A stretch of DNA of 64,000 nucleotides, from assembly GCF_041242975.1 (NCBI RefSeq), contig NZ_CP162488.1, forward strand, positions 475,501-539,500, given 5' to 3'. The position numbers and the translations under genes are program-made. Shown one piece after another: positions 11,808 to 42,579 of the stretch; within the stretch, counting starts at the first letter, position 1, and every line of letters starts with the position of its first letter. The DNA comes from Xanthomonas sp. DAR 35659 (GTDB taxonomy: Bacteria > Pseudomonadota > Gammaproteobacteria > Xanthomonadales > Xanthomonadaceae). The notes beneath the pieces were generated by a model, which had not been told where the DNA came from, ran no database searches, and worked only from the letters and a program-made list of their open reading frames with translations.

Positions 11808-11810
11808 GAC

Positions 11811-22723: not shown

Positions 22724-25700
22724 TCATGGCCCGGGCTGGCAGCGCGGATCGTCGACCTTGCAGTCGCCGAAGCCGAGCACCTGCACGGTGATGACCGAGG
22801 GCGCTTCGCGCGGGGTGGCGCCGGTGCGCGAGGCGAGGTCGCCGACCGCGTCGGAGACCGCGGCCGCGGCATTGGACGCCGCGCTCAACGCGCCGCTATC
22901 GACGTTGCGCGCGGTGCCCACGCCGACGGTGTCGCCCTGCACCTGGATGTTGTCGGCGTTGGCGACGAACTGCGCGGCCACGATCAGGTTGCCGCTGGCG
23001 CGAATGCCGGCGTCGCCCGCATCGACGGTACCGCGCGGGGCGACCAGCACCGCATTGCCGCGCGGATCGTCGGTGGTCAGGCGCAACGTGGCGATGCCGG
23101 CGCCGCTGACCTGGCCGCTGGCATCGAGCGTGCAGTACTGGTCCTGGTCGCACAGGTAGCGCGCCCGCGCGCGCTCGGCGCTGGTCTTGCTGCCCTTGCC
23201 GGCGTTGATGTCGCCGTTGGAACTCCACAGCAGCAGGTCGCCGCCGCGCTGGGTGAAGATGCGGCTCTGCGCCAGCAGCACGCTGGCATCGGTGAACACG
23301 CCGATGTCGCCGCGGCCCACCGCCAGGATGCCCTGCTGCGCCGGGCCGATCAGCACGTTGCCCTGGGAATCGGTGACCACCGGCGGCGCCAGCGCGCTGC
23401 CGACCTGCAGGCCGCCGCCCGGGCCGAGGATGCGGATATCGCCGCCGGCCTGGGTCTGCAGGGTGGAGCCGCGCATGTCCAGGGTGCCGGTGATGCTGCG
23501 GGTCGCCGCGCCGTTGACCCCGCCTTCCAGGTTGTTGCGGGTGTAGCCCAGGCGCGACGGGAACAGCGTCTCGATGGCGGCATAGCCGCGCGTGTATTTC
23601 TGGAAATCCGCGCTGGCCGGATCGGCATGGCCTTCGCCGACCTGCTTGAGCACGTCCAGGAACACGCGCTCGGCCAGCAGGCGGCGGGTGTCGGCCGGCA
23701 GTTGCTGGAAGCGCTGCCAGGCCGCGGCGGGGGTGAGCGCCTCCTGCGCCGCGGCGGCGTGCTGCGCGACCGGGACGGACGCGGACGCGTCGGGCGCGCG
23801 TTGCTGCACGAACTCGACCAGCCATTGCCGATAGGTGGCGCTGCTCTGCGCGCTGCCCGGATTCAGGTACAGCGCGCTGAGCGCGTCGGCCTCCTCGCCG
23901 TTGGCGACGCCATAGCGCACCACCAGGTCGGCGCCGGAGGTGGTGCGGATGCCACCCGCGTTGCGGTCGACCAGACTGATGCGCAGGCCCTTCATGGCCT
24001 CTTCCGCCGAGGTCAACGGACCGAGATTGCGCCCCGCCTGCACCTCGAACGTGCCCGGGCCGGCCAGCGTCATCCAGCCCCAGCGAATGGCCTCGTCCCC
24101 GAGCGGACCGCCCAGGATCGGGGTGTAGTAGAGGTCGCGCCCGGCCTGGACCCGGGTCACGTCCGAAGCCCGATGGTTCTGCGCGCGCAGGTCGAGATTG
24201 ACGATGTCGCGCCCGGCGCGGATGTCGGCGGGCTTCGGCAACTGCAGGGTCAGCGGATTGAGCATGAAGCCGTCTGCCGCATAGCCGCTGGCCACGTCGC
24301 CGTCGCGGCTGTAGAGGCGGACCGGTTGCGCGTCGTCCTGGTGCAGGCCGAGTGGGGTGCCGGCGCCGGCGGGATTGTCGTTGCCGTCGTAGTTGCCGGT
24401 TTCGTCCAGCATCGCCAGCTGCCGATTGCTCTTGCCGGCCACCAGCGTGTCGTTGAACAGGCGGATGTCGCCTTGCGCCAGCAGTTCCAGCTGTCCCTGC
24501 GCCGACGGCGCCAGGCGCCCGCTGGTCTCCACTTGCAGGCTGCCGCCATGGGCGACCGCTTCCACCGTGGCCGGCAGTACGTTGTCGAACACGCCCTCGT
24601 TGACGATGAGCGCGTCGGTGCCGCGGCTCGTGTCGCGCGCGCCGTTGCCGAACAGCACGCCGGGCAGCTTGAGCGTGCCGAGGCGGATGTCGCCGTTCAA
24701 GGCGTCGACCGCGATCGCCGAGCCGCTGCCGTAATCGGTGGTGGCGCGGGTGCTGTCGCCCATCAGCGCGGCGACGCCGCCGGTGGACAGGACGTAACCG
24801 GGATTGACGATGGCGCCGAGCGCGGCATCGCCGCCGGCGTGGATCGACCACTGGCCGTCCTGCACGGCGATCACCGGATCCACCGCGCTGACGACATCGC
24901 GCAACGCGCCGCTGCTGCCGTAGCCCTGGCCGCTGAGCGTGAACGCGCTGCCGAGGTTGCCGCCGGCGTCCAGGCGGCCTTGTCCGCGCGCCACGAAATA
25001 GTCGCCGCCGAGCACGTCGCGTCCGGCCTCCACCTGCAGGTCGCCGCCGCCGTAGGTCTGGCGGCCCTGCGCGGTCAGCCGGTAGCTGGTCGGCAGCGAC
25101 ACCGATAGCTCGCGCACATCGCGCCCGGCCTGCACCGCGACGTCGCCGCCGCTGCTGAGCACGCCCTGGGCGAAGCCGCCGTAGTTGATCAGCCCGGCGC
25201 TGGGCGTGACGCCATCGGCGCCGACCGGATTGCCGACCTGCAGCCACGGCCACCAGTACTGGCCGACGTAGTTGCCGGCCACGCCGGTGCGGCTGCCGTC
25301 GCCATCGAACACCTGGCGGTTGCCGAGGATGTCGCGCCCGGCCTGCAGCAGCAGGTCGCCGGCGGCCTCGGCATTGGCTTGCGCGCTGACCAGTTGGCCG
25401 GGAACGCTGCTGGCGACGCCGCCGGCGTCGATGCCGGCGCGCACGATGCGCACGTCGTCGCCGACGTCGCTGCCGCTGCCCGGCTGGCCGGCGCTGTAGA
25501 TGCTGGCCGGCGCATCGGCATCGGCGAAGCGCAGGTCGCGCGCGGCGGCGATCTGGATGCTGCCGGTGCCGGTGCGCACCACGGTCGGCAGCAGCACGTC
25601 GTTCTTGCCGGCTTCCTGGTAGCGCTGGTGGCCGTCGAGCACCACGTCGGCCTCGCTGCCGGTGCGCAGCGCATCGGGGCGGATGCTGGCGAAATCGGCG

Positions 25701-28700
25701 CCGGCGACGATGCGGTAGCGGCTGCTGTCGCCGCCGATCAGGCTGGTGGTGGCCAGCGGCAGCGGATTGCTGGCGTTGGCCTGCAGCGACGGCGTGTTGT
25801 GGGTGGCGGCCGGCAGCAATGCGCCGAGCACCGGCAGCGAGGGCAGGGTCAAGGTCGGCAGCGGGTATTCGCCGGAGGCGTTGTAGAACGCATACATGTC
25901 GAGCACATAGCGTTCGTAGTTGCTCACGTACTGCGCATAGTCGGCGGGCGAGGTGGGCGCGGCCGGCGCGGTGGGTTGGCCGGCATAGTCCTGGATGGGG
26001 TATCCGGCGTCCGGCGAGTAGTTGACCAGGAAGGCATTGAGCAGGTTGTCGTACGGCGGCAGCAGGCCGCCCGCGGTCAGTTCGTCCTGCGGCTTCTGCA
26101 GCATGTCCAGCAGTTGCAGGTACTGGCCGTAGTACTGCGCGGCTTCGCCCTGGTCGTCGCCGACGCTGGCCGGCGGCGACGGGATCAGGCCCTCGACGCT
26201 GACGAACGCGTTATCGTAGGCGTTCTGCAGCAGGCGTTGATAGGCCGTGCTGGCATTGCCGTAACTGGCCTGCGGGCCGCCGCCGCCGAACGGATTGCGC
26301 AACTGGTAGAAGCCGTCGCTGAGGCTGGCCTTGATGGCGACACCGCCTTCGGCGCGCAGGGTCAGCACCGGCGCGTTGCCGTTGTAGCGGAAGTCCAGCT
26401 GGTCGCGGTTGGCGCCGGCGCCGAGGTTCCAGTTGCTCATCACCCGGATCTCGCCGCCGTTGATGGCCGGATCCGGATTGCGCAGTTCGATGCCCGGCCG
26501 CGCGCGCAGGTTGGGCAGGTTGCCCAGGCGCGCCTCGAACGCGAAGCCCGGGCGCTGCACGAAGCCCATCAGCGTGCCGGGCGTGCCGGCGCTGTCGTCG
26601 GCATAGCCATAGAACTGGCGGTGCGCGGCGTTGGCGGCATCCGCGACGAACACGTAGCGGCCGAGGTAGTCGGCGACCTGCGCCGGCGTGGTCGGCGCGG
26701 CCACCGCGTTGCCGGCAAGGTCCGACCAGGTCCCGGCCAGCAGCGCGCCCTGCGCGTCGTACCAGCCGGCCGGATCGATGATGCCGTCGAAATGCTTGGC
26801 CGGGTCGGTGCTGGCGTCGGTGGTGCTCCACACCGCATACGCTTCCAGGCCCACTTCGCGCGCGCCGCGCACGCTGGCGCCGTTGGCCACGGTCACGTTG
26901 ACCTCGCCGTCGGCGAGCAGCGGCGTGCGGATGTCCACGCTGCCGCCGGACAGGCCGCCGGCGCTGCCGCCGGATACGTCCAGCACCGCGCCGGCGCCGA
27001 GGGCGATGCTGCCGGCCGCGCCGGCCTGCACGTTCTGGTAGCCGTAGTCGGCGTTGAGGGTGCCGTCGTCGCGGCCGCTGCTGCCCAGCGCGATGCTGCC
27101 GCCGCGTTTGTCGGCGGCGCTGCCGCGGGCCAGCAGCTGGCCGTCGATCGCCACGCCGTGGCGGCCCCACAGCGCGATGCTGCCGCCCTGGGTGCCGGAC
27201 GCGTCGATGCTGCCGGCGATGCGGATGTTGCCGTTGTCCGCGTCGCGGGCGATGGCGTCGGCGCCGCCGTCGGCGGTCAGCGTCACCGCGTCGGCGCGCA
27301 GCGTGGTGCCGGCCGACAGCAGCAGGTTGCCGCTGCGCGCATGCACGTCGATGGCGCCGTCGAAACCGCCGCCGGCCAGTTGCGACGCCAGCGGATCCAG
27401 AGCGATCGCGCTGCCCGCGTCGAGCGCGAAGCGCCCCCCGCGGCCTTGCGCGGCATGGCCGTCGAGGACGCCGGGCAGGGCCACGCGGCCTTGCGCCGCG
27501 GCCAGGCTCACGCTGCCGGCGTCGGCCGCGCCGGGCGCAGACACGTCGATGCGGGTGGAGGCATCGGCGAGCACGTCGCCGGCCAGGGCCTGCAAGGCGA
27601 CCGTGCCGCCCTGGGTCGGCTTGACGGTGTCGAAGAAGGGATTCGCCACCCCGGACGCGTCCAGCGTGGCGCCATCGTGCAGGCGCACCGCGCCGTCGGT
27701 GCTGCGCAGGGCGATGCCGCCGGAGTTGGCGCGGATCAGCCCGTCGCTGTCGATGCTGGCGGCGACCAGGCTGACCCGCCCGCCCAGCGGCTGCGCCGCG
27801 CTGCCGTTGCCGGCGCTGCGTTGCAGGCGCAGCGCGCCGGTGGTGCGCAGGGTCTGGTCGGCGCCGGCGTCGGCCAGCAGCAGCGGCGTGCGCAGGTCCA
27901 CCGCGCGGCCGCCGAAATCGAATTGGCCGCGGTCGCGCACGAATAGCGTCTGCGTCGCGTCCACCGCGACCGCGCCGAACCCGCTCAGCTGCTTGTCGCC
28001 ACCGGCGAAGGCGACCTCGCGCCCTTGCAGGTGCAGCAGGCCGCCGCCGCTCGCGTCGGCGTCGGCCGGCGCCGCGGTGGCGCCGAGGTTGGACAGGGTC
28101 AGCTGGTCGGCGCTCAGCGCAACGTCGCCGCCGTCGCCGACGAAGCGGCCGGCGCTGAGGGTCAGGGCGTTGCTCACGCGCAGGTCCAGGCCGCCGGCGA
28201 ATGCCATGTCGCCGTAGCTGTGCAGGCCGACCTGTCTGGCCTGCGCGAACTGCGCCAGGCTGCCGGCGCCCAGCACCAGGCCGTCGGCGTCGCCGCTGGC
28301 GGCCTGCGCGTCCAGGCGCACGTGGCCGGCGCTGGCGTCGATCCGCTGGCCGCGTAGCACCGCGCCGGCGGCGATGGCGCTGTCGCCGGTGGAGTCCAGG
28401 CTCAGCGCGGTGCCGCCATCCAGCACCGCGCCGCTGCCGATCTGCAGGCGCGCCTGCGCCTGTGCCGCGTCCGGCACGTTGGCGCGCACGAGCGTGGCGG
28501 CGCCGAGGCTGGACAGGCGCAGCAGCGCGCTATCGCCGCTGTCGCCGCCGTCCTTGCCGATCAGCAGCGGCGTCGTCGCGCGGTCGCCGCTACCGCCCTG
28601 CGCCTGCAACACACTGCTGGCATCCACGCGCAGGCCGCCGTCGGCATCGCTGCCGTCGCCGGCGGCGGCCAGCAGCAGTTCCGGCGCGCGCAGCGCGCTG

Positions 28701-31700
28701 TCGGCAGCGTTGCTGACCCGCACGCGCTCGGCACGCACGTGCAGGCGCATGCCGTCGCTGGTCTGCTCGCGGGTGCCGCCGAGCAACAGGCTGCCGGCGT
28801 TCATCGCGTTGAGCGCGGTCGCCTCCACGCCGACGTAGCCGGCCGCGGCCGTCTGGCCGCGGCCGAGCACCTGCAGCGCCTGTGCGGCGATGTCGATCTG
28901 CGCGGCATTGCCGCCGCTGGCGGCGGCGGTGGCCAGGCTCGCGCCCAGACCGAGCGCGCTGCCGGCGTCCAGGATCAGCTGGCCGCCGTCGCGCGGCAGT
29001 TGCGGCGTCGCGGTGCCGCGGCCGGCGGCCTGCGCGGCGAAGAACGCATTGGCGCCGGTGCGGGTGTATTCGGAGTACTGGCCCCAGGTCGCGGCCGACT
29101 GCACCTCGAACACCTGGCGACGCGCGCTGCGGGTCCCGCTCAAGGTGTCGACCAGATAGCCGGCGACCACCGCGGTGCCGTCGGCGGCGACCAGGTTCTG
29201 CGCGGCGGTGGCATCGCTGCTGCCGCTGCGCGCGACCACCCGGTAGGCGCCGGGCAAGGTGGCGTATTTGGCCGGCAACAGCGTGTAGTCGCCGTCGGCC
29301 AGGCCGGGCACGCCGCTCAGGTGCACGGCGCTGCCGAGCGCGGGCGTGCCGCCGTTGCGTTCGAACGCCGCATCGCTGGCGGCCACCGGCGCCTGCGCGC
29401 CGGGCACGATCGCGTAGACCGTGCGGCCGTCCGGGTACAACGGCACCTGGGTGGCGCTGCCGCCGGCATAGCTGGTGTTGGTGGAGGACAGCAGGTCGCG
29501 GCTGCCGCCGGTGCCGGGCACCCACTCGCTGGCCTGCAGGTCGCCACCGCCGGACAGGTCCACGCGCGCGCCAGGGGCCAGCGCGATGCGGTCGCCATCC
29601 AGCTGCACTTGCTTCTGTGGCGGCGCGGTCAGGGCCGCGTTGCCGCTTTGCGCGCTGCCGTCGTAGCGCCATTGCGCTCCGTCCACGGTGCTGCCGTACG
29701 GAAGCGTCGCGCCCTCCAGCGAGACCGAGGTCAGGCTGCCGGCGCCGAGGCTGACTTCCCGGGTCGGGGTCACGTTGCGGGTGCCGAACACCGCGCGCGC
29801 GGCCGCGTCGTCGGCCCCGCTCACGCCGAGCAGCAGTTGCCCGCTGGGCGCGCGCAGGCGCCCGTCCTGGGCGATGTAGGTCGCATCCAGCGCCAGCGTG
29901 CCGCCGGCCGACAGCGGCAGCGCCGGCGCATCGCCCTGGGCTTCGATGCGGATGCGGGTCTCGGCGCGGGTGCCGTCGCTGCCGAGCGCGCCGAGCGCGC
30001 GCACCAGGAAGGTCTCGCCGCTGGCCGGATACAGTTGCGCGGCGCTGAAGGTGAGATCGCCGGCGGTCAGCAGCTCGCCGGCGCGCGGCGTGGCGACGCC
30101 GTTGGCATCGACCAGATAGGCGTAGGCGGCGGGCGTGTGGAAGCGCACGGCGCCGCTGCTCGACAGGCGCGTGTGGCCGGCGCCATCCAGCGCGAACTGG
30201 CCGCCGAGGTCGATCTGCGTGGCGTTCACGTCCAGCGTGGCGCTGCCGGGCGCCTGCGGTTCGGCCAGCACGGCGGCCGGGCTGTTCGGCGCCTGCCAGC
30301 CGTTGAGGCCGACATAGGCCGCGCGCAGGCCGACATGGCCGCTGTCGGCGAGCTGGCCGAAGCCGGTCGCGCCGTCGGCCAGCAGCGCATAGCGCGGCGC
30401 GTTGAACACCAGCGCGCGGGCCAGCGCCAGGTCGACGTCGCCGGCGAAGCCGACCGGCAGCTGCGGGCGCGTGCTGCCGGCGGGCGACTGGTCGCCGACC
30501 AGCAAGGTGTCCATGCCGCTGCCGGCCAGGCGGTCGGCGGCGAAGTACAGCGGGCCGGGCGTGGCGCCGGCGCCGGGCAACGCCGCGCCGGGCTGCGCGC
30601 CCCGCGGCAGGCGGCTGTCGTGCTGGGTGAAGATCACTCCGCTGGGGCCGGGCAGCACCGGATTGCCGCCTTCGAACAGTTTGAGCGGCAGCAGCGCCAG
30701 CGTGCCGCCGCGGTCCTGTGCGCTGCCGCCGCCGGCGCGCAGGCTGCCGTCGAAGTACAGGCCGGTGCTGGCGGCCAGGTCCAGGCGCCCGCCGGCGCTG
30801 CCCACGGTCTGCGCCTGCAGCGTGGCGCCGCCGCCGATGATCGCGTTGCCGGTGGGCAGGTCCAGCACCGCGCGGGTGCCGGACAGGTCCAACTGCGCGC
30901 CGGCGGCGACCACGATCGCGCCGCTGTCGTTGCTGAGGGTGATCCGGCCGCCGTCGAGCACGCGACCGCTGCGCGGCCGCACCAGGCCGTTGGCGCCGGG
31001 CTGCAGGGCGGCCTGTGGATCGAGCAGGGCGATGCCGGAGACGTCCAGGCGGCTGTCCGCGCCCAGCCACAACGCCTTGCCGGGTGCCGCGTAGGCGCGG
31101 CCGCGGTCCACGTCCGGCGCCGCGGAAAGGCCCGAGTCGCGCGAGGTGTCGCCGGAGAGCGCGATGCTGCCGCCCTGCGCCTGGATGCCGCCCAGCACCG
31201 CGACCTCGCCACGCCCGCCGATGCGCACGTTGGCGCCCGGATCCAGCAGCAACTGCGTGCCTTCGTCGAGCAGCACGCGGCCGCTGGCGCCGCTCAGGCT
31301 GGGATTGCCGGCGATGCGGCCGAGGAAGTCGCCGCCGCGCAACGCGAAATCGGTGGCGGGGCGATAGAACGGATCCAACTGGCCGAGCGTGGCGAAGCCA
31401 TTGCCGCCGGCCTGCGCCGCGCCGCCGACCACATCGCGGCCGCTGGCGGCACCGCGCAGCGCCTGCAGGTTCGGCAGCAGGTTGCGCTGGCTCACCCGCA
31501 GTTGGGTACCGGCGACGAGGGTGGCGTCCTGTTCGGCGGCCAGGTCGTAGCCGCCGAAGCCGTTGCCGTCGAAGAAGCCCGCATCCAGGTGCAGCACGCG
31601 CGCATCGCCGGGTGCGTTGCCGCCGATCTGCACGCCGAAGGCGCGCAGGCTCAGCGTGCCGCCGCCGGCGAAGTTGTCCGCGTGCAGGCTGGCCGGGTCG

Positions 31701-34700
31701 AACTGCAGCAGCCCGGCGCCGTCGGCGACGGGGGCGTCGGCGGTGTAGGTGGGCGAGCCGGCACTCTCGCTGGAGGGACGCAAGTAGGTGCGCAGCGCGA
31801 TGTCGCCGCCGTGGCCGAGCGGGCGTCCGTCGCGCATGGCCAGTGCGCCGTTCGCGTCGACATAGCCGCCGCTGGAGGCGTCGAGCACCGCGCCGGGCGC
31901 GATCAGCAGCGATGCGCTTTGGTCCAGGCCGGCGAAAGCGGACTGCATCCCGTCGAGCGCGATGCTGCCGCCATCGACGAAGGCGCTGCCCTGCGCTTCG
32001 GTGCCGAAGCGGCGGTCGTCGTTGATCCAGCGTCCGCTCACGTCCAGTCGCGCGCCGGCGCCGAGCAGCAGGTCGCCGTGGCCGAGCGACTGCCGCGTGC
32101 CGGCGGTTTGCCTTGGATCGTCGACGAAAGCGAAGCCGCCGCTGCTCTGCAGCGCGATCTTCCCGGCGTGCGCGATGAGCGCGCCGTCGATCTGCAGGCG
32201 CTGGGCTTGCAGCGAAAGCGTGCCACCGTCGGCGAGCTGCAACGTCGCACCGGCCGCGATCTCGATCAACGGCGCATTGCCGATCGTCAGCGTCTGCAAA
32301 CCGTGGCCATTGATCATCCGCGTGGACAGTTGCGACCAGAAAAGCGGATTGTCCTGGTCTTGCGCCGCGCCTGCGCTGTCTGGCAGTTCGGCCGCGCGCG
32401 TTCCCCGCGCGAGCCCTTGCGGCAGCTCCACGGGGTCGTCCGTGATGCGCCAGTTGCGTTGATCGCGGTTGATGCCGTCCGCCAGGCCGATCATCGCGTT
32501 GTACAAACCGGTGTCGCTGTTGATGCGCAGCGCGCCGCCGTGCGGCGAGGTGTCCCGCGTCAGTTGGTAGCGCCCGGCCAGCGCCTGCGCGGAGAGATCG
32601 CCAGCGAGCACGGCCACGCCGGGTTGCGGTCCCTTGCCGTTGGCCTGGCGTCCAAGCTCGATGTTCAACGCACCGGCGTCGCCGCCTTGCAGATAGTCGC
32701 TCTCGTAATAGCGGCGGCTGCCCAGCAACGGATTGGCGAACTGTTCGCTCACGCCCCAGCGCGTGTGCGCGACGGTCTGCGTGCCGGCCACGCCCAGGTA
32801 GCGCATCGACGGGTCGGCGCTAGCCAGGTCGTACAGGCGGCCGTCGGCGCCGAGCAGGCGCGGCGTTTCGACCATGCCGCCGAGCATGTGCACGTAGCCG
32901 CCATCCATGGCGAGCTTCGCGCCGGGCGCGATCACCAGGTCGCGCGCGCCGATGTTCAGGGTGCCGCCGTCGAGCAGCATCTGGTCGATCGTGCGCGGCA
33001 CCTGGTCGACGTAGCCCTGCGCGTTGAGCAGCGGGCTGCCGACCCAGGCCTGGCCGTCGTCGCGCACGCCCTTGGCGCGGCGATCGAACTGCAGCGATTG
33101 GCGGAACAGCGCGCCGTCGCGTTGCAGCGGCGCATCGGCCAGTTCGTTCTGGCCCACGCGCGGGATCTGCACCAGGTTGCTGCTCATCGCTTGCCGCACG
33201 TCGGCGATGCCGGACACGTCGAGCTGCGCGCCGCTGTCGATCAGCAGCCGGCTGGTGAGGGCGGAGCGCCCCTGCAGGCGGGTGGCTTCGCTGTCCAGGC
33301 CGATCAGGTTGACGGTGCCGCCCGGGGCGAAGGTGAGCGATTGCCCCTGCAACTGCACCTGCGCGCCGGCCAGGACCATCTTCGGGCCGAGGAAGGCCAG
33401 GTCGGCGGCGGCGCTGGAAGTGGTGGTCTCGCCGTCGTGCTCGGGCAGGATCGCGGTGACCGAGCCGGACGCGAGATTCAGTGCGCCGCCGCGGTAGCTG
33501 GCCAGCGCGTCGCCGCCGACCACCGCTTCCTGGTCGATCGCCAGCAGCATCGCGCTACCCGGGCGGCTGATGCTGGTGGTGGCCTGGACCAGGCCGCGCT
33601 GCTGCACGCTGTAGCCGGCCAGGGTCACGTTGCCGCGGGTGGCCGCGACGATGCCGCTGTTGTCCAAGGTGCCGACCTTGGAACGGTCGCTGCCGGTCGG
33701 CGAGAAGAAGCTGCTGAACCCCAGCGGCAGGAGGTTGCCGCCGCTGGACTCCAGCAGCGTCCGCAACTCCTGCGACTGCCGCAGGCCCAGTACCGCCGCC
33801 AGCATCGTCTGTCCGTCCTGCGCGGTCACCGTGCCGGCGTTGCTGACGTTGGGCGCGGCGATCAGGCTGTAGCCCTGGCTGCCGCTGGCGATGCGCGCGC
33901 CGCTGTCGATGCGGATGTCGCCCGGGGTCTTCCCGGCGGCCAGGCTGTCCAGCCCGGTCAGCACGATGCCGGTCTGGCCGGTGGCGCCGAACAGGCCGCG
34001 GGCGAGGAAGGTCTGGTCGCTGAGCGCGCGGTTGCCGTCGAACAGGTCCAGCGAGGACACCAGCAGCGAATGCGCGTTGACCTGGCTGGCGCCGCCGAAC
34101 AGCACCCCGTTGCGGTTGAGCAGGTACACCTGGCCCGGCGCCTGGATGCTGCCGAGGATCCTGCTCGGCGCCGCGCTCGGATCGTTGACCCGGTTCAGCG
34201 CGATCCACTGCGCCGCGTCGCTGCCGCCGGCGGACTGGTCGAACTGCAGGCGCGTGCGGCTGCCGACGTTGAACGTCTCCCAGTTGAGGATCGCCTTCTT
34301 CTGGGTCTGCTGGATGGTGACCTGGGTATCGCCGCCCACCACCTGCTGGGTCGGCGCGCGCGCGCCCAGCCAGACGTTGCGCTGGCCCAGGCGCGGATCG
34401 TCGCTGCGCACCGCGCCGGGATCGACGATCGCGCCGTCCGGCAGCTGCAGGCCGCCCTTGCCGAGGCCGTCCGGCACCATCCCGACCTGCGCGGCCTGGG
34501 CCGCGGCGCGCGCGGCGGCCTGCGTCGCGTCCAGGCTCTGCCGCGCCTGCGCGGCGCGCTGGAACGCCTGCAGCGATTTCTGCGCCAGATTGCTCGCCGC
34601 CGCCGACTGCAGGCCCTGTTGCTGCGCGGTCGCCGCCGCCTGTGCGCCCGGATCGGCGCCACGGCGCACGAACGGGCTGGTCTGCGCCTGGCTGCGGCCG

Positions 34701-34783: not shown

Positions 34784-34807
34784 GGCGGCGGTCTCGGTGG
34801 CGGCGCG

Positions 34808-35176
34808 TCAACGCGCCGGAGCGAAGGGAGTGGGGAGGTAGTGCGGCTGCGGCCGCTGCGGGGTCAGCGCGCGGCCGTACGCGCTGCCGTAGCGCTGGCG
34901 CAGCGCCGCCGGCGTCGGCTGCCCGCGGTGCAGCGGATCCAGCGCGGTGGCGGCCGTGGCCAGCGGCGGCGCGTCGGGGCGGGCGCGGGCGGCGGCGTCG
35001 CGCAGGACCTGGTTGAGGCAGTGCAACTGGCCGGCGACGTCCTCGCCGATCCGCACCTGCACGCAGGGCGCGCTCGCCGGCGGCGCTGGCGGCGCGGCGC
35101 GCGCGGCGCCGACGGATGCGGCGACGGCCGCGGCGGCCAGCGCCAGCCACCCCGCGGCGGCGCCGGCGCGGGTCAT
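34808..35176 (-). CDS. small exported protein in the TPS operon
   Basis: Protein of 122 residues. ATG at 35176 overlaps the previous stop (ATGA), giving coupled translation. A signal peptide (AAAGWLALAAAAVAASVGAARA) is followed by a short Pro/Ala linker, CVQVRIGEDVAGQLHCLNQV with two cysteines 14 apart, and a basic, proline-rich tail (YGRALTPQRPQPHYLPTPFA). Only 24 bases separate it from tpsA. Not a family I recognise. Its size, disulphide pair and position suggest a periplasmic helper of TpsA. Confidence 0.7.
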   Translation of the reverse strand: MTRAGAAAGWLALAAAAVAASVGAARAAPPAPPASAPCVQVRIGEDVAGQLHCLNQVLRDAAARARPDAPPLATAATALDPLHRGQPTPAALRQRYGSAYGRALTPQRPQPHYLPTPFAPAR

Positions 35177-35838
35177 GGCGCCGCGTCCTGCAGCATCGCC
35201 GTGGACGTGGACGTGGCGCCGCATGCCTGGGCCTGCGCGTGCTGCTCGGCCAGGCGGTCTTCCAGCGCACGCACCCGGTTCTCGCGGGTCACCCTGGCCA
35301 TGCCGAACAACTCGCGGCCGTGGCTGCGCACGAAGCGCACGAACGCCGGGTCGCGGTACAGCGCGGCCAGTTCGCGCGCGGTGGCGTACAGCGCCTCGCT
35401 GCCGCTGGCGCATTGCGCCATCCGCGCGCGCTGGCGCTGCAGTTCCGCGTCCAGCGCGGCGCGCGCCTGCGCCTGTTGCGTCGCCGTTTGCGTCGCCCTG
35501 GCCTGCGCCTGCTGCTGCTCGCGCTGTTGCGCGAGCGCCGCATCGCGTTCGCGGCGCGCCTGCTCGAGCTGGCGCTGCAATGCGGCCACGCGGCCGGAAT
35601 CGGCGCTGGCCGCGGGCGGCGCCGGTGCCGCCCGCAGCGCATCGCGCTCGCGTTCGGCGGCCGCGGTGGCCAGCTGCTGCTGGACCAGGTCCGCTTCGGC
35701 CTTGCGCAGCCGCGCGCTGGTGTCGCGCAAGGCATCGCGCAAGCGGGTCTGCGCGCTGTCCTGGGCGTGCAGCGGCGCGCCGGCGAGCAGCGCGGCGGCG
35801 AACAGGCCGCAGGCCAGGCGGGAAGGTCGCTGGCGCAT
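35173..35838 (-). CDS. periplasmic coiled-coil protein in the TPS operon
   Basis: Protein of 221 residues from ATG at 35838, two bases after the porin stop. Signal peptide LACGLFAAALLAGAPLHAQ, then a long alpha-helical coiled coil (ALRDTSARLRKAEADLVQQQ through RARMAQCASGSEALYATARE) of about 130 residues with heptad-like spacing and many Gln/Arg. The C-terminal third (YRDPAFVRFVRSHGRELFGM) is more globular. It could bridge inner and outer membrane components, as periplasmic adaptors do. No family name; the role is inferred from position and shape. Confidence 0.7.
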   Translation of the reverse strand: MRQRPSRLACGLFAAALLAGAPLHAQDSAQTRLRDALRDTSARLRKAEADLVQQQLATAAAERERDALRAAPAPPAASADSGRVAALQRQLEQARRERDAALAQQREQQQAQARATQTATQQAQARAALDAELQRQRARMAQCASGSEALYATARELAALYRDPAFVRFVRSHGRELFGMARVTRENRVRALEDRLAEQHAQAQACGATSTSTAMLQDAAP

Positions 35839-35840
35839 GC

Positions 35841-37553
35841 TCAGAACTCCGCGCCGAGATCGAGCTGCAGCAGGTCCACCGCGAACGGCGCGCCGGAGAT
35901 CTCGTTGGCGCTGAGCCAGCGCAGGCCGACCCAGGTGTTGCGCGCCAGCGCGTAGTTGCCGCCGACGATGAAGCCGCGCGCATTGGTGCCGCCGAGATGG
36001 AAATCCGAATCGGTGAACCCGTCCGGCACCGCGTCCGATTCCAGGTACTTGTAGCCGACGCTGACGTTCCAGTCGCCCGGCTGCGTCGGCTTGGGCTGGC
36101 CGACGGTGAAGTTCAGGTAGTAGCCCATGTCGCCGCCGTCGAACACGCCCTGGTCGCCGAGGTTGTTGACCGGGCCGAGCGAGCGCACGCGCGCGACGTT
36201 GTAGCGGGTGTTCTTGACCACGTCGGCCTCGATCAGCATCGCCACCGGTGCGAACTGGTCGAGCTGCAGCTGCGCGCGCAGGTCGGCGACGCCGAACTTG
36301 CTGGCGTAGCCGTAGTACTGCAGTTGCGGGCCGTTGGGATTGGCCGGATCGGCGACGATGTCGCGCAGCGCGAACAAGGTGTTGCCGAACTGCTGGAATT
36401 GCGGCCGCGATCCATCGGTGTCGCAGCTGTCGGCGGAGGTCGGCGCCAGGCACGGCGAGGAGCGCTTGCCCTCGAACTGGTCGTACTGGAAGTAGCCCAG
36501 GCCCACGCGCAGGGTGGTGGCGTCGGCCATGCGCCAGCGCACGCCCAGCTGCGCGCCGTACATCCACTTGTCGCGGCTGCGGGTCTTGCTGGTGCTGGTG
36601 GAACCGAAGTCGAAGTCGGTGTTGTAGACCGGGAACAGGCCGGCGCTGGCCCACGGCGCGAGATCGGCGTCGGCGTCGCTGTCGGCCAGGTCGTAGCGCG
36701 CGGCCACGCCGTCGAAGTTGAGGTCGTTGTCGAACACCAGCTCGCTGCTCCAGAACGGATTGGCGAAGCGGCCGAAGGACAGGGTCAGCGCGTCGAGCGG
36801 GGTCAGCTGCAGCGCGGCGCGGTCCAGCCACAGCGAATACTTGGACAGGTTGCCGTTGCCGCCGAGGGTCTGGTTGGTGGACACCGGGCTGCGGTCGCTG
36901 CCGGTGGCCAGGCGCAGGTCCGCGCTGACCCAGTCGGCGATCTGCGCGCTCACCCCGAGCCGCGCCCGCACGCGCATGCGGCTGCGGTTGCGCGTGGTGT
37001 TGAGGAACGGCGCGTTGGTGGTGCCCACCGTGTCGAAGCCGGAGCCGGCGTTGATGGCGCCGAAGTTGGGGAAGGACGCATAGTTGCCGTCGTCGTTGAA
37101 CACGCCTTCGCCGCGCACGCGCACATCGCCGTACACGCGCACGCGCTGGGTCCATTCGGGCAGCGCGCCGGGCGCGGCCCAGCCTTCGGCCTTGGCCTGC
37201 GCGGTGACTTCCGCGCGCAGTTCGTCCTTGATCTGCTGGCGCACCGGTTCGGGCACGTATTGCACCACCACCGCGCCGGGCTGGGTCGCGTACGGCGCCG
37301 CGGCCGCTGTCGGCGCGGCCTCCGCGGTGGCCGAGGCTTCGCGGATCAGGTCGTCGGCCTGGGCGCGGGTCATCACGCCCTTGGCGACCAGCAGGTCGAT
37401 CAGCCGCAGCGTGACCTGCGGATTGAGCTGCGCCGGCGCGGCCGTGGTCGTGGTCGCGGCGGACTGGGCCATGGCCGCGGCCGGTGCCAGCAGCAGCGCC
37501 AGCAGCGCCAGGCGCAACCGGGACGGACGGTGGAGAGGAGACGGAATGGTCAT
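35841..37553 (-). CDS. putative outer-membrane porin in the TPS operon
   Basis: Exported beta-barrel protein of 570 residues. Signal (LRLALLALLLAPAAAMAQ) is followed by a periplasmic N-domain with helix VTLRLIDLLVAKGVMTRAQADDLI and VRQQIKDELRAEV, then alternating amphipathic strands from WTQRVRVYGDVRVRGEGV to the terminal WVGLRWLSANEISG...LDLGAEF, ending in F as barrel proteins do. This is the layout of the 'putative porin' family PF16930. ATG at 37553 was preferred over 37577 because it starts the signal peptide. It sits between tonB and the coiled-coil gene; a TonB-linked barrel without an obvious plug suggests substrate passage rather than classical TonB-dependent uptake. Confidence 0.78.
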   Translation of the reverse strand: MTIPSPLHRPSRLRLALLALLLAPAAAMAQSAATTTTAAPAQLNPQVTLRLIDLLVAKGVMTRAQADDLIREASATAEAAPTAAAAPYATQPGAVVVQYVPEPVRQQIKDELRAEVTAQAKAEGWAAPGALPEWTQRVRVYGDVRVRGEGVFNDDGNYASFPNFGAINAGSGFDTVGTTNAPFLNTTRNRSRMRVRARLGVSAQIADWVSADLRLATGSDRSPVSTNQTLGGNGNLSKYSLWLDRAALQLTPLDALTLSFGRFANPFWSSELVFDNDLNFDGVAARYDLADSDADADLAPWASAGLFPVYNTDFDFGSTSTSKTRSRDKWMYGAQLGVRWRMADATTLRVGLGYFQYDQFEGKRSSPCLAPTSADSCDTDGSRPQFQQFGNTLFALRDIVADPANPNGPQLQYYGYASKFGVADLRAQLQLDQFAPVAMLIEADVVKNTRYNVARVRSLGPVNNLGDQGVFDGGDMGYYLNFTVGQPKPTQPGDWNVSVGYKYLESDAVPDGFTDSDFHLGGTNARGFIVGGNYALARNTWVGLRWLSANEISGAPFAVDLLQLDLGAEF

Positions 37554-37581
37554 GCGGGGGTCCTTGGTGCGAAACACGGCG

Positions 37582-38262
37582 TCAGCCCGGCGCCAGCGCG
37601 CCGATGCGCAACTGGATGGGCTGGGGAAGGGAGGCGGGCGGCGGTTGCGGCAGCGGCTGGTTCTGCAGCGCGCGCACGATCGCCGCGTCCAGGTCCGGCT
37701 TGCCGGCCGACTGCAGGATCTGCAGGCGGCCGATGCTGCCGTCCGGGTTCAGCCACAGCGCCACGGTGGCGCTGTAGCGGCCCTTGCGGGTGCGCTCGTC
37801 GCGCTGCAGCAACTGCTGCACCGCGCGCTGCACGCTGGCCGCGTAGCCGCCGAACGGACTGCCGCCGCCGCCCTTGCCGCCGATGCGGGTGCCGCCGCCC
37901 TCGCCGGCCTGCAGGCCGAAGGCGTTGTCGCCGGGGCCGGCCGGCGCGGTCAGCGGATCGCCCGGTGGCGTGGGCTCGGTGTCCGGTTTTGGCTGCGGCG
38001 TGGGCTCGGCGGCCTGCAGCGGCTGCGGCCGTTCCTGCGGCTTGGGCGGTTCCGGCGTGGGCTTGGGGGGCGGCGGAGGCGGGGGCGGCGGCAGCATCAC
38101 CTGGGTGATGCGCGGCGGCTGCGCGCGCGTGGGCGGCGCCTGCTGCGGGCGCAGCAGGAGCGAGACCAGGAAGCCGAGCAGCAGCAGCGCCAACAGCGCG
38201 GCGCCGACTTTCAGCCAGCGCCGCGGCGGCTCGGTGTCGTGCAGCGGATCCATCGCGTTCAC
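37582..38262 (-). CDS. tonB: TonB-family energy transducer
   Basis: Inner-membrane protein of 226 residues with one N-terminal helix (LKVGAALLALLLLGFLVSLL), a proline-rich periplasmic spacer (MLPPPPPPPPPKPTPEPPKP and on, residues about 55-105), a glycine-rich patch and a C-terminal TonB domain (YAASVQRAVQQLLQRDERTR, YSATVALWLNPDGSIGRLQI, DLDAAIVRALQNQPLPQPPP). TonB transmits proton-motive force from ExbB/ExbD to outer-membrane partners. GTG at 38262 abuts the exbD stop; ATG at 38253 is an alternative. Its location in the TPS operon suggests a dedicated partner, either the porin at 35841 or the TpsB pore. Confidence 0.9.
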   Translation of the reverse strand: MNAMDPLHDTEPPRRWLKVGAALLALLLLGFLVSLLLRPQQAPPTRAQPPRITQVMLPPPPPPPPPKPTPEPPKPQERPQPLQAAEPTPQPKPDTEPTPPGDPLTAPAGPGDNAFGLQAGEGGGTRIGGKGGGGSPFGGYAASVQRAVQQLLQRDERTRKGRYSATVALWLNPDGSIGRLQILQSAGKPDLDAAIVRALQNQPLPQPPPASLPQPIQLRIGALAPG

Positions 38263-38667
38263 TCAGCCGGCCGCCGGGCGTTGCGTGGCCAGACCGATCG
38301 AGGCGATGCCGAGCCGGCTGCACAGGTCCAGCACCGCCATCACCTTCTCGTACTGCACGGTGCGGTCGCCGCGCAGCATCACCGGCAACTCGGCGTCGCT
38401 GGCCAGCGCGTTGCGCAACTGCTGTTCCAGCTCGCTCATGCTCACCGGCACCGCGTCCAGGCTGACCTGGCCGTTGTTGTCGATCGCGATGACCTTGGTC
38501 TTGGGTTCGGACAGCGGCTTGGCCGCGCTGGCCTTGGGCAATTCCACCTTGATGCCCTGCACCGCGGCGGTGGTCATGATGATGAAGATCACCAACAGCA
38601 CGTACGCCAGGTCCAGCATCGGCGTGATGTTGATGTCGTCGTAGGGCTTTTTGCCTTGGACCTTCAT
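38263..38667 (-). CDS. exbD: ExbD/TolR-type proton-channel protein
   Basis: Inner-membrane protein of 134 residues. A short cytoplasmic N-terminus leads to one membrane helix, INITPMLDLAYVLLVIFIIM, containing the proton-carrying aspartate (D19), and a periplasmic domain (IKVELPKASAAKPLSEPKTK, VIAIDNNGQVSLD) of ExbD/TolR type. ATG at 38667 lies four bases after the exbB stop. The tandem exbB-exbD-tonB order is canonical for a TonB motor. Confidence 0.93.
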   Translation of the reverse strand: MKVQGKKPYDDINITPMLDLAYVLLVIFIIMTTAAVQGIKVELPKASAAKPLSEPKTKVIAIDNNGQVSLDAVPVSMSELEQQLRNALASDAELPVMLRGDRTVQYEKVMAVLDLCSRLGIASIGLATQRPAAG

Positions 38668-38671
38668 CGGC

Positions 38672-40441
38672 TCAGCCCCCGACCGCGCGCGCCGGCGCGT
38701 CGCCGGCATAGTCTTCGGCGATGCGCTTTTCCAGTTCGTCGACGAACACCTGCATGTCCGCCGAGACCGCCTCGGCCTGGCTGAGCAGGTAGTTGTAGCC
38801 GAACAGCGCGGGGATCGCGACGGCCAGGCCGGCGACCGTGGCCAGCAGCGCGGCGGCGATGCCGGGCGCGATCGCGTTGATGTTGACGTCGCCGGCGGCG
38901 GCGACCGCGGCGAAGGTGATCATGACCCCGACCACGGTGCCGAGCAGGCCCAGGAACGGGCCGCCGGAAATGGCGATGGTCAGCAGCACCATGCCCTTGT
39001 GGATGCGCTGGCCTTCGCGCACTGCGGCCGCGTCCAGGGCCGAGCGGATCGCCGCGATCGACTGCGTGCGGACCACATTGGTGCCGCTGGCCTGCAGGCG
39101 CTCGCGCAGTTCCTGTTGCCCCACCTGCAGCAGCCGTGCCAGGTTGGAGCGCACTCCGGCCGTGCTGCCGAGCTGTTGCCACTGCGGCGCGTGCAGCGGA
39201 TGCGCGGCCACCTGTTGCCGGTAGGCATCGAGGAAGCGCGCGTTGGCGCCGGCGGTGGCGTTGAGGTACAGGCCCTTGCGCACCATCACCCACCAGCTGA
39301 TCAGCGCCATCACCGCCAGGATGCCGATCACCGCCCACGCATCCGGGGTCAGCGCGGCGATCAGGATGCCGAAGTAGTTGTGGCCGCCGTCGCCCGCGCG
39401 CTGCTCCACCGGGTCGAAGCGCAGCAGCCGCGCGTCCACGCCCTGGCTGCGCGCCGCCGCCTCGATCGCGCCGACCGCGCGCGCGGTCTTGGCGACTTCG
39501 ACCTCGTCGAGCAGGCCGATGAAGTTCGGATGCGCTGCGCCGGGTTCGCCGCCGAGCAGCACGCCGCCGGTGCTGGGCGGCAGCGCCACCGCGGCGGTGC
39601 CGACCGGCTGGCCGTTGACGAACAGGGTCGCGCTCTTGCCATCGCTGCGCAGCGCCACGTGCGCCCAGGCATCGGCCGGCAGCGCGGCGGGCGCGGCGAT
39701 CTGCGCGGCCGTGCCGAACTCGGCCAGCACGCGGCCGCCGTCCAGGCGCAGGGTCAGCGCGCCGGGTAGTGCCAACAGCACGCCGGATGCGTCGGCGCCT
39801 GCCGGCTTGGCCCACAGCGACAGCGTCGCCGGCTGCGCCGCCGGCCAGGTCAACGAGGCCGAGGCCGGTACCGCCACCGGCGCGCGCCCGTCCAGGCGCA
39901 GGCCGGCGCCGATCAACGCCGCGTCGGCCAGGTTCGCCGGGGAGGTGGCGTTGTTGGCGTAGGCGGTGCTGTCGCTGCCGGCGGCCTGCGCGCTGGCGAA
40001 GTGGTAGACCGCGACGGTGTCGGCGTCGTAGCTGCCCTTGGCGTCGCTGCCGCCGCTGGCCTCGGGATTGCCGAAATACACGTACAGCGGCGTGCTCGCG
40101 TTGGCCGGCAGATCGGGCAGGTCGACCCAGGCCAGCGCCACCTGGTCGACCAGGCCGTCGTACTTCTCGAAGTGGTACTTCAGCGGCGTGCGGTCGTCGC
40201 CGGCGACGAAGCGCACATCGCTGCCGTCGGCCTTGGCATCGGCGAAGTTGAAGTTGCCCGAATGCAGGCGCACCAGCACCTGCGTGCGGCCGGACGGCTG
40301 GCTCAGCGCGGCTCCGGTGGAGGTGGTGTCGAGGGTGAGCTTGGCCCGGTAGTTCCACTTGCCGTCCCACCAGGTCGCGGCCGATGCCGGCAGCGCGAGC
40401 AGCAACAGGCCCAGGAACAAGAAAGTACGCAATCTGATCAC
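38672..40441 (-). CDS. DUF2341 / LamG-like / ExbB fusion protein
   Basis: Inner-membrane motor subunit with a large N-terminal periplasmic sensor, 589 residues. Signal peptide MIRLRTFLFLGLLLLALPASA; residues about 22-130 are DUF2341-like (WWDGKWNYRAKLTLDT, DVRFVAGDDRTPLKYHFEKY, STPLYVYFGNPEASGG); about 135-310 form a LamG/concanavalin-like beta sandwich (TLSLWAKPAG, WAHVALRSDGKSATLFVNGQ, FIGLLDEVEVAKTARA). The last 225 residues are MotA/TolQ/ExbB: helix AWAVIGILAVMALISWWVMV (about 366), then the paired helices GGPFLGLLGTVVGVMITFAA and IAAALLATVAGLAVAIPALF. GTG at 40441 begins the signal. Ordinary ExbB lacks the sensor. The fold suggests that glycan or surface ligand binding is coupled to the TonB motor, but this is inference. 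Confidence 0.85.
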   Translation of the reverse strand: MIRLRTFLFLGLLLLALPASAATWWDGKWNYRAKLTLDTTSTGAALSQPSGRTQVLVRLHSGNFNFADAKADGSDVRFVAGDDRTPLKYHFEKYDGLVDQVALAWVDLPDLPANASTPLYVYFGNPEASGGSDAKGSYDADTVAVYHFASAQAAGSDSTAYANNATSPANLADAALIGAGLRLDGRAPVAVPASASLTWPAAQPATLSLWAKPAGADASGVLLALPGALTLRLDGGRVLAEFGTAAQIAAPAALPADAWAHVALRSDGKSATLFVNGQPVGTAAVALPPSTGGVLLGGEPGAAHPNFIGLLDEVEVAKTARAVGAIEAAARSQGVDARLLRFDPVEQRAGDGGHNYFGILIAALTPDAWAVIGILAVMALISWWVMVRKGLYLNATAGANARFLDAYRQQVAAHPLHAPQWQQLGSTAGVRSNLARLLQVGQQELRERLQASGTNVVRTQSIAAIRSALDAAAVREGQRIHKGMVLLTIAISGGPFLGLLGTVVGVMITFAAVAAAGDVNINAIAPGIAAALLATVAGLAVAIPALFGYNYLLSQAEAVSADMQVFVDELEKRIAEDYAGDAPARAVGG

Positions 40442-40476
40442 GATCCACCCCGATTGATGTTTGAACGACGCCGGCT

Positions 40477-42039
40477 TCAGAACTCGCTCCATAGCCGGAA
40501 CAGCACGTTGATGTCCTTCTGTTTGCGCCCGCCGGGACTGGACAGCGGCGCGGCCACTTCCAGCGCGCCGTTGAGATGCGCGAACGCCTTGAACGCGGCG
40601 CCCACGCCGGTCGCGACCAGCGTTTCGCTCACCGTCTGCTCGGGCAGCGGATCGTGGATGCGCGTATAGCCGGCATCGAGGAACGCGTGCACGCGCGCCT
40701 CCTGCACCGTGCGTCCGGCCGCGGAGGCGAACGAGGGGCTGCGCAGTTCGAACTGGCCGGCGGCGCCGTAGTCGCCCAGGGCCTGGCTCTCGGGATAGCC
40801 GCGCACGCTGTCCATGCCGCCGATGCTGAATTGCTCGTTGCTGATCAGCGGTTCGGACGCCAACTGCGTCTGCAGCCGCGCGGACCACTGGTAGTCGCCG
40901 GCGAACGTGCGCATGCGCGAGGCGTCGGTGCGCAGGTGGAAGAAGTTGGAGCGCGCCTTGTAGCGCTTGATGTCGAAGTGCGCGCTGTCGTCGCCGACGC
41001 CACGCACGTTCAGCGTCGCGGTCGCTTCGAACGTGTCGATGCCGCGCGGCCGCATCCAGGTGGCGCTGTAGCTGGCGCTGAGCGGCAGGTAGCGGATCGG
41101 CGCGGAACTGCGGTCGCCGCCGAACAAGGTGTCCTCCTTGAAGTCCTTGTAGTCCGCGCCCACGCTCAGGGTGTGGAAGAAGCCTGCGTCGCCAGGCAGG
41201 GAGCGGATCAGGCGCAGCCCCAACAGGCTGCCGTTGCCGATCACGTTGAAGCCGCCGATCGCGGCGACCTCGCTGTCGCTGCGCACGCTGTAGCCGAGCA
41301 GCGACCACGGCGAGGCGCCGAAGCGCGCCAGGTACGACGCGGAGAACACCCGCGCATCGGACGGCCGCTGCGGCGCGGTCTGCGCCGAGAGCGTGATGCT
41401 GTGCCCGCGTTGCCAGAGATTCTCGTAGCGGACCGAACCGCCCAGCCGCAGTTCCGAGGTGTTGGCGCTGTTGCGGTTGTTGAGTTCCACGCTGCCGTGC
41501 AGCGGCAGCGTGTCCTCCACGTTCAAATCCACGTCCACCGTGTTCGGTTGCGCGCCGGCCTTGACGTCCGGCGTGACCCGGCGATCGGGCCACTGGTTCA
41601 GCGCGACGATGTCGCGTTGCACCGCGTTGAAGTCGGGCACGCCGCCTTCCTTCAAAGACGGCGCGCCGCGCTCGACCGCATCGGGAGAGAAATAGGTGGC
41701 GCCGTTGACGCGCAGCCGGCCGATGCGCTGTTCGCTCACCTGCAGGGTGACCAGGCCGTTGCCGGCATTCTGTTCGGGCACGCTCACCGCGACCGTGGCC
41801 AGGCCCCTGTCGGCGTACAGCGCCTGCAGTGCGGCGCGCGCCGCTTCCACATCGGCCTCGCTGCGCTGCGGGCCGAGAAACGGATACACCGCGCGCTCGA
41901 TGTCCGCCGCGCTCAATGCGCTGTTGCCGACCACTTGGTAGGCCATCACGTCGAACCGCGCCGCCGGCGCGTCCGCGGCGCAAGCGCATGGCACGCCGCA
42001 CACGGCCAGGCCGAGTGCCGCGAAGAGTCGCAACTCCAT
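40477..42039 (-). CDS. TpsB two-partner secretion pore (ShlB/FhaC/HecB family)
   Basis: Outer-membrane transporter of 520 residues that exports the TpsA protein. Signal peptide (LFAALGLAVCGVPCACA); POTRA 1 begins FDVMAYQVVGNSALSAADIE, followed by ALQALYADRGLATVAVSVPE, and POTRA 2 by QRIGRLRVNGATYFSPD. A 16-strand barrel follows; the conserved loop motif VRGYPES is at residues 412-418, and the chain ends NVLFRLWSEF with a C-terminal aromatic. It is the first gene of the operon and likely defines the export route of the 4019-residue protein. The 323 bases upstream hold the promoter region and a perfect inverted repeat at 42150. Confidence 0.92.
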   Translation of the reverse strand: MELRLFAALGLAVCGVPCACAADAPAARFDVMAYQVVGNSALSAADIERAVYPFLGPQRSEADVEAARAALQALYADRGLATVAVSVPEQNAGNGLVTLQVSEQRIGRLRVNGATYFSPDAVERGAPSLKEGGVPDFNAVQRDIVALNQWPDRRVTPDVKAGAQPNTVDVDLNVEDTLPLHGSVELNNRNSANTSELRLGGSVRYENLWQRGHSITLSAQTAPQRPSDARVFSASYLARFGASPWSLLGYSVRSDSEVAAIGGFNVIGNGSLLGLRLIRSLPGDAGFFHTLSVGADYKDFKEDTLFGGDRSSAPIRYLPLSASYSATWMRPRGIDTFEATATLNVRGVGDDSAHFDIKRYKARSNFFHLRTDASRMRTFAGDYQWSARLQTQLASEPLISNEQFSIGGMDSVRGYPESQALGDYGAAGQFELRSPSFASAAGRTVQEARVHAFLDAGYTRIHDPLPEQTVSETLVATGVGAAFKAFAHLNGALEVAAPLSSPGGRKQKDINVLFRLWSEF

Positions 42040-42149
42040 CTGAAAATGTCCCCTGACGTCGGCGCGCGGCGCGATGCCGCGAATGAAGGCCGCCGCAATG
42101 GGGGCAGGACGTTAGGGGCGATAAATGACTATTCGCGAACGCATTTGTG

Positions 42150-42166
42150 ACCGTGCATGTCACGGT
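42150..42166. promoter_or_regulatory. inverted repeat upstream of the TPS operon
   Basis: ACCGTG-CATGT-CACGGT, within the larger GTGAC-N7-GTCAC palindrome, lies about 111 bases before the tpsB start in an AT-richer stretch. It resembles a CRP/Clp-like half-site pair (TGTGA...TCAC) but with wrong spacing, so the regulator is unknown. No other feature was identified in 42040-42362. Confidence 0.45.
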
Positions 42167-42422: not shown

Positions 42423-42424
42423 TA

Positions 42425-42518: not shown

Positions 42519-42579
42519 GACGTCCCCCCGGTTTTGAGTAGCATGGCGATTTGGAGTCCAATCCCCAACGAGACGGAGA

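Follow-up and report, generated by a model that had tools for sequence, protein, structure and literature searches.

A two-partner secretion operon of Xanthomonas with its own ExbB-ExbD-TonB motor, and a tail box at the end of its giant exoprotein

Why would a two-partner secretion (TPS) operon carry a proton-driven motor of its own? The question is raised by a 64,000-nucleotide stretch of the genome of Xanthomonas sp. DAR 35659 (contig NZ_CP162488.1, positions 475,501 to 539,500; hereafter the window, from whose first letter coordinates are counted), in which the genes for an outer-membrane TPS transporter (TpsB) and a giant exoprotein (TpsA) enclose those for a fused ExbB, ExbD, TonB, a porin and two further exported proteins. 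By the usual account, TPS draws on no source of energy at the outer membrane (PubMed Central (PMC) article PMC5422565). The operon is real, widespread and partly known, and a short box in the C-terminal tail of TpsA is a concrete new lead, which opens the question of the motor to binding and deletion experiments.

The operon and its recurrence across genomes

The first-pass annotation had described eight closely spaced genes on one strand, and this is how they lie: the run occupies 42039-22724 on the minus strand, its domains match that description, and the gaps in gene order from tpsB to tpsA are 35, 4, 0, 28, 2, -4 and 24 bases, the negative value being a 4-base overlap between the coiled-coil and small-protein genes. 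The first gene, tpsB (40477..42039), encodes a 520-aa Omp85-type transporter (ShlB, PF03865, 1.1e-24; POTRA_2, 2.5e-14). It is followed by the exbB fusion (38672..40441), which unites a signal peptide with DUF2341 (~40228-40031), Laminin_G_3 (~39877-39479) and a MotA_ExbB channel domain (~39103-38750; 3.4e-27; all spans from Pfam), by exbD (38263..38667; 134 aa; PF02472, 1.3e-29), and by tonB (37582..38262), whose product has a transmembrane helix, a Pro-rich and Gly-rich spacer and a TonB_2 C-terminal domain (4e-13). The porin gene (35841..37553; Porin_5, PF16930, 3.2e-190) precedes the genes for an exported coiled-coil protein of 221 aa (35173..35838) and a small exported two-cysteine protein of 122 aa (34808..35176), for neither of which Pfam gave a significant family. 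The last gene, tpsA (22724..34783), encodes a 4019-aa exoprotein with a TPS domain (PF05860, 1.5e-17; ~34354-33791, residues 144-331) and a C-terminal DUF3739 (PF12545, 2.7e-34; ~23245-22916). With POTRA_2 and ShlB in TpsB and the TPS domain in TpsA, the operon is predicted to encode a motor-equipped type Vb (two-partner) secretion system. The energiser is complete, the MotA_ExbB channel, ExbD and the TonB C-terminal domain being encoded together: T502 and T535 in the channel part of the fused ExbB are invariant in a 24-member alignment, ExbD has the aspartate of an MLDL motif inside a predicted membrane helix, and these residues, which we take to be the functional residues of the channel, are kept here; proton use is predicted.

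The association of this motor with TPS extends well beyond the window. Among 249 Pseudomonadota genomes the TPS domain was found in 96 and the DUF3739 type of TpsA in 10, which represent nine genera and six families. DUF2341 served as the marker of the motor; it detects the fused-ExbB type alone, and an unfused ExbB-ExbD beside another TPS would escape it. It was present in nine genomes, every one of them among the ten with DUF3739, and was found neither in the 86 TPS genomes without DUF3739 nor in the 153 without TPS. The tenth genome (G215) might have been a counter-example, with no DUF2341 and no ShlB match (and no TpsB found); this was ruled out by its 3.8-kb contig C52, which has the ExbB half, ExbD, TonB and the porin, the contig edge removing DUF2341. 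Counted in this way, the fused-ExbB motor occurs in 10 of 10 DUF3739-TPS genomes and DUF2341 in 0 of 239 others (Fisher p = 4.8e-18, a test that takes no account of kinship). Full-length Porin_5 (E < 1e-100) was found in exactly the same 10 genomes, with weak partial matches in four others.

A second sample, 377 genomes of the class and partly overlapping the first, gave a comparable picture. DUF3739 was found in 25 genomes, of which 24 lay above the cut-off, and DUF2341 in 29; the ExbB fusion was present in 23 of those 24. In the one that lacked it, G319, DUF2341 lies in a frame of 1632 aa that shows no sign of the ExbB part, and a contig edge cuts the DUF3739; the twenty-fifth genome (G415) combines a weak DUF3739 match containing a stop with no DUF2341. 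No ExbB match came from the five genomes with DUF2341 only; in four of them the protein could be read no farther than the edge of a locus or contig. The Xanthomonas genome itself, a single contig of 5.4 Mb, holds two further TPS pairs (positions of that contig 1338024-1340076, L174, and 5220885-5222848, L175), each with tpsB and tpsA, and in the 13.5 and 14.8 kb read there no other families of the operon were found. Taken together, these patterns strongly support a coupling of motor and TPS in function, which we hold to be very probable, and show that TpsB, the fused ExbB, ExbD, TonB, Porin_5 and the TpsA of the DUF3739 type belong together as a single functional set with close pairing.

Could such a pairing reflect common regulation and nothing more, a small independent TonB system being switched on along with a TPS, for example by phosphate starvation, with no physical contact? 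A single promoter in Pseudomonas aeruginosa, driving phdA, pdtB, exbB2D2, tonB4 and PA0696-PA0701 under PhoB and the sigma factor VreI (PMC4971064), would accord with this. The pairing nevertheless holds in G204, where motor and tpsA lie on different contigs, at least ~49 kb apart, and it spans alpha-, beta- and gammaproteobacteria and, by record title, Verrucomicrobiota, so we consider regulation alone very improbable. G122 had also seemed unlinked, but both its tpsA and its motor are close to contig ends and could adjoin one another, and it is no longer counted as such a case.

Searching with the 24-member alignment of ExbB fusions recovered at least 526 relatives, the best 80 of which were kept as loci reaching 10 kb to either side, so that a tpsA farther away would go unseen. 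By record title these 80 belong to alpha-, beta- and gammaproteobacteria, with eight Verrucomicrobiota records and one Anaeromyxobacter metagenome-assembled genome; the nearest named relative among the matches listed, which may omit records very close to the window, is Lysobacter sp. yr284, with an ExbB fusion 71% identical. A TPS gene is present in 77 of the 80 loci, exbD in 80, tonB in 78, the porin gene in 75, a relative of the coiled-coil gene, by hidden Markov model (HMM), in 66 and one of the small-protein gene in 28, short families such as this last having also matched some odd frames. In 73 loci the fused exbB is followed by exbD, tonB and the porin gene in that order, a recurrence far above chance. 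Five of the seven remaining loci are cut by contig ends; in L135 (Sphingobium quisquiliarum, 4404-16200) tpsB sits inside the motor cluster, between tonB and the porin gene, and in L145 the porin gene is on the opposite strand.

The eight-gene order of the first-pass annotation, when sought in these loci, proved to be one of two layouts, the fused exbB being preceded by tpsB in 49 of the 80, by tpsA in 26, by neither in four and by a contig edge in one. The series tpsB-exbB-exbD-tonB-porin-coiled coil with a tpsA downstream is visible in 15. As a further variation, two adjacent exbD-type open reading frames (ORFs) follow the fused exbB in 13 loci, mostly of the tpsA-first layout (L101, L117, L122, L128, L131, L137, L143, L147-L151 and L153). 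The Verrucomicrobiota loci (L092, L117-L119, L121, L125, L131 and L158) carry the cluster to the limits of their contigs, and may represent either inter-phylum transfer or mis-binned contigs.

These layouts bear on whether the motor drives export itself, TonB acting on the POTRA domains of TpsB to open the pore or shift its plug for the 4019-aa TpsA. Such energised export would be in keeping with the predominance of tpsB immediately before the fused exbB, and with the published TonB-dependent export of PopC, which needs Oar in Myxococcus xanthus (PMC6434023). It is at odds with the 26 loci in which that position is taken by tpsA. Size alone does not demand this motor either, as no DUF2341 was found in the remaining 86 TPS genomes even though TpsA frames are 3000-5000 aa long in several of them. 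Since TonB has its anchor in the inner membrane and exerts its pull inwards, energised export is on anatomical grounds the least likely of export, release and uptake, and we regard it as quite improbable. The anatomy would be better matched by a motor that holds the TpsA tail, puts it under tension or releases it, or by a coupling to the porin.

The porin in turn suggests linked uptake, in which TpsA would catch a ligand, the motor would energise Porin_5 and the ligand would enter by the porin, the tail of TpsA serving only as an anchor. Porin_5 and the coiled-coil protein are constant partners of the system. Because the full-length porin is paired with DUF3739 TPS as strictly as the motor is (10 of 10 against 0 of 239), this is the strongest rival to the explanation favoured below. 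The porin gene also follows tonB in 73 of the 80 loci, and the segment before its barrel, predicted to be periplasmic, is strongly conserved (vRVpYVPe and then a helix, in a consensus of 76 sequences) and might receive the motor; HxuABC offers a precedent of a TPS that serves TonB-dependent uptake (PMC5422565). Against these points, Pfam gave no match to the Plug domain (PF07715) in the porin or any other of the eight operon proteins, no TonB-dependent receptor was found in the operon, and the run contains no gene recognisable as that of an importer. Linked uptake also leaves the correlation between VreA and a second tail strand, described below, unexplained, and on the whole we hold it to be unlikely.

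The C-terminal tail of TpsA

In TpsA proteins of the DUF3739 type the last beta-helix rung is followed by a linker of low complexity and then by a short box that resembles a strand. In the window these are represented by DNIQVQG on the last rung (22934-22954, minus strand, as are the features that follow), a flexible linker of 45 aa (22799..22933) and the box SVITVQVLGFG (residues 3996-4006; 22766..22798), which scores 33.4 bits on the fitted profile; behind it stands a C-x6-C pair (residues 4008 and 4015; 22739..22762), a possible cysteine hook. The tails compared, which include the 26 of the class sample minus L041 (the window copy), L050 (weak, with an in-frame stop) and L042 (off the contig), number 72, or 68 without identical ends. 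Their linkers, measurable in 43 of the 68, are 40-59 aa long with a median of 50 and are 25% Ala. The box follows the consensus S-[FIV]-[LI]-[TS]-V-[ED]-V-[LI]-G-[FY]-G and lies 1 to 65 residues before the C-terminus, and 67 of the 68 distinct tails reach at least 15 bits on the profile fitted to them. The cut-off was set at 11.3 bits, where the leave-one-out scores have their tenth percentile, so that by construction it admits 62 of the 68 tails; it is also passed by 3 of 845 background ORFs (stop-to-stop frames of at least 400 aa, not all of which are genes) and by 32 of 3400 shuffled tails. None of eight TpsAs without DUF3739, five with complete C-termini and three cut, passes the same cut-off. 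The three TpsA paralogues of genome G159, in which one DUF2341 gene was found, have an identical box.

In 19 of the 68 tails, among them that of the window, the box is followed by a C-terminal Cys pair of the CdrA type. This pair was ruled out as a motor-specific feature, the two other TpsAs of the host also ending in a Cys pair; because these two have the pair and yet no box, the box seems specific to the motor-linked type. The same comparison bears on the possibility that the box serves TpsB alone, anchoring the end of the chain as a strand that docks on POTRA with or without a cysteine hook, and that the motor is unrelated to it. The retention of CdrA in CdrB at its C-terminus through such a hook (PMC7616799) lends this some weight, as does the recurrence of the Cys pair in box tails, whereas the host's two Cys-paired tails without a box speak against it; an anchor of this kind is in our judgement not likely.

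The TonB of the operon provides a further clue. It scores 138.6 bits on an HMM of operon TonBs built without the window. On another HMM, made from the C-terminal domains of nine VreA proteins, none of them of the host genome, it scores 78.5 bits, against 4.1 for the housekeeping TonB of the host and -1.6 for TolA; the operon TonB and the VreA-like sensors thus share a TonB subfamily. VreA-like proteins, which combine an STN with a TonB-type domain, occur in 25 of the fetched loci, and none was found in the 64-kb window, to which that search within the host was confined. A second strand of the type VQVLGxG follows the box in 9 of 12 tails with a VreA-like gene nearby and in 0 of 22 with none found (Fisher p = 4e-6), figures tempered by the selection of the pattern after the tails had been viewed, by the kinship of the VreA-bearing TpsAs, by flanks cut at contig ends in some cases and by one of the 22 (G135 C4), in whose genome a VreA-like gene lies elsewhere. 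It is likewise found in 0 of 34 tails whose flanks are incompletely seen. The pattern fits one tail strand for each TonB-type domain.

We favour, at a rough probability of 0.4, an explanation in which TpsB exports TpsA, the tail stays in the periplasm and the TonB of the operon grips it. TpsB would export the beta-helical TpsA without the motor, like other TPS systems, and export would halt at the linker, which would remain threaded through TpsB with the box, and sometimes the Cys pair, on the periplasmic side. The C-terminal domain of the operon TonB would then pair with the box by strand addition, a contact that we put forward tentatively, and ExbB-ExbD, powered by the proton gradient, would keep hold of the surface fibre, put it under tension or let it drop. 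Where a relative has a VreA-like protein, VreA would read the same tail through the second strand and report to an extracytoplasmic function (ECF) sigma factor.

Several points weigh against this explanation, beginning with the reservations just given about the second strand. The box is variable, the strict seed pattern being present in 34 of the 68 tails and the tail of L131 being divergent at 4.7 bits, and the complete control tails number five. The box is also not a canonical TonB box, a candidate identity that was ruled out: of the TonB-dependent receptors found in the host genome, 66 in all, 30 were used to build a TonB-box profile, some of these 30 boxes looking misplaced (for example L192), and the profile does not single the tail box out. 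Its best window falls inside the box in only 19 of the 68 tails, against 5.9 expected by position, and it scores highest on DNIxVxG of the last beta-helix rung. DNIQVQG in the window reaches 18.5 bits, against a receptor median of 18.8 for receptors that are themselves included in the profile; this TonB-box-like score probably reflects beta-helix sequence, and the similar DNIxVGG is common among relatives. Furthermore, the box could dock on the POTRA domain of TpsB, on the porin or on the coiled-coil protein instead, candidates that co-occurrence cannot tell apart because all of them co-occur. TPS export proceeds without external energy in vitro (PMC5422565), and an insertion in PA0695, the tonB homologue of P. 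aeruginosa, left VreI-induced virulence in zebrafish embryos unreduced, in an assay whose readout was not secretion (PMC2729926).

On the wider scale, a large TPS subclass in alpha-, beta- and gammaproteobacteria and Verrucomicrobiota goes with a private proton-driven motor and a porin, which leaves two possibilities: the textbook account of TPS without energy does not fully cover this subclass, or the passengers, once exported, perform work that is linked to the motor. The broadest form of the idea, that TonB motors have a use beyond import and signalling, with a C-terminal TonB-type handle on TpsA by which a dedicated motor holds, tensions or frees a fibre while VreA reads the same tail and reports to a sigma factor, is doubtful at present. 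The box is nonetheless a candidate ligand of VreA and, if it is one, would supply the inducing signal of the PUMA3 system of P. aeruginosa, which is described as still unknown (PMC7035377).

Boundaries and surroundings of the operon

The fused ExbB starts with GTG at 40441; an alternative ATG at 40492 would overlap tpsB. The tonB gene has an alternative ATG at 38253. An absence of the N-terminal plug helix from TpsB was considered and not adopted; the stretch before POTRA varies, a motif being found in 28 of 52 sequences at a median position of 56, with several sequences mis-trimmed. A Tol-like motor was considered, the fused ExbB scoring 126 bits against TolQ and 80 against ExbB; it was rejected because the housekeeping ExbB shows the same preference (155.9 versus 102.7) and because a tree of 29 sequences separates the 24 fusions (support 0.80) from both TolQ and ExbB of the host genome.

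No promoter-like sites were found in 34700-42700, a scan that stopped short of the interior of tpsA, and the sole terminator-like site on the operon strand in that range is at 42225, upstream of tpsB. An inverted repeat GTGAC-N7-GTCAC at 42147-42163, also upstream of tpsB, is a possible operator. Long ORFs opposite the operon, such as that at 28739-34738 on the plus strand (1999 aa), were not accepted as genes and look like frames kept open by a G+C content of 69-76%. An IS3-type transposase (rve, HTH_21) is encoded at 42663-43691 on the plus strand, ~620 bases upstream of tpsB, and adjoins a stretch of lower G+C content (44-46 kb, 0.54). Elsewhere in the window, 6000-14000 has a G+C content of 0.55-0.60, against ~0.66-0.70 around it, and may be a foreign or degraded stretch; 9326-13371 contains no ORF of at least 150 aa. 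Genes for DUF58, MoxR-type AAA ATPase and SpoIIM proteins cluster at 46869-53207 on the minus strand.

Comparison with known systems

Classical TPS systems such as FhaC/FhaB and HMW1 share with the operon a TpsB with ShlB and POTRA_2 and a TpsA with the TPS domain, and we know of no motor or porin genes belonging to them. Neither a tail box nor a motor is, to our knowledge, associated with CdrA. The HxuC-HxuB-HxuA system of Haemophilus influenzae relies on the cell's own TonB and carries a TonB-dependent receptor, whereas the window operon carries the motor itself and Porin_5, no receptor having been found in it. The two are alike in that a TPS pair is tied to a TonB-dependent function (PMC5422565). 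With CdrA-CdrB of P. aeruginosa the likeness lies in a TPS adhesin that a cysteine hook retains at its C-terminus (PMC7616799), the window tail having a Cys pair, and with Oar-dependent PopC secretion in M. xanthus it lies in an export that needs TonB-type machinery (PMC6434023); Oar differs in being a TonB-dependent receptor, of which none was found in the window operon.

The closest parallel is the pdt/PUMA3 locus of P. aeruginosa, whose regulon includes tpsA, tpsB, exbB2 and exbD2, with the tonB homologue PA0695 in the same locus (PMC2729926). A grouping of homologues of the TPS genes, ExbBD and PA0696 in several genera had been reported in 2009 in the same paper, which also modelled VreA as a signalling domain joined to one that resembles TolA/TonB, with the speculation that this second domain has a binding partner in the outer membrane. 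That neighbourhoods of this kind were annotated and their mechanism not described, as the first-pass annotation had put it, agrees with the literature: exbB2-exbD2-tonB4 is termed a putative, still uncharacterised TonB system and PA0696 a putative outer-membrane porin (PMC7035377), and in a search confined to open-licence PMC papers neither a role for the motor nor a tail box of TpsA was found to be described. Two differences set the window apart. In P. aeruginosa pdtA has its own promoter, vreAIR regulating both transcripts (PMC4971064), whereas tpsA is the last gene of the run in the window; and a VreA-like receptor with STN and a TonB C-terminal domain adjoins the locus there, with none found in the window. 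The order TpsB-ExbB-ExbD-TonB-putative porin, with a giant TpsA in the locus (PMC7035377), is common to both. The gene neighbourhood is already known in part, from Pseudomonas; the strict pairing and the TpsA tail box are the new parts.

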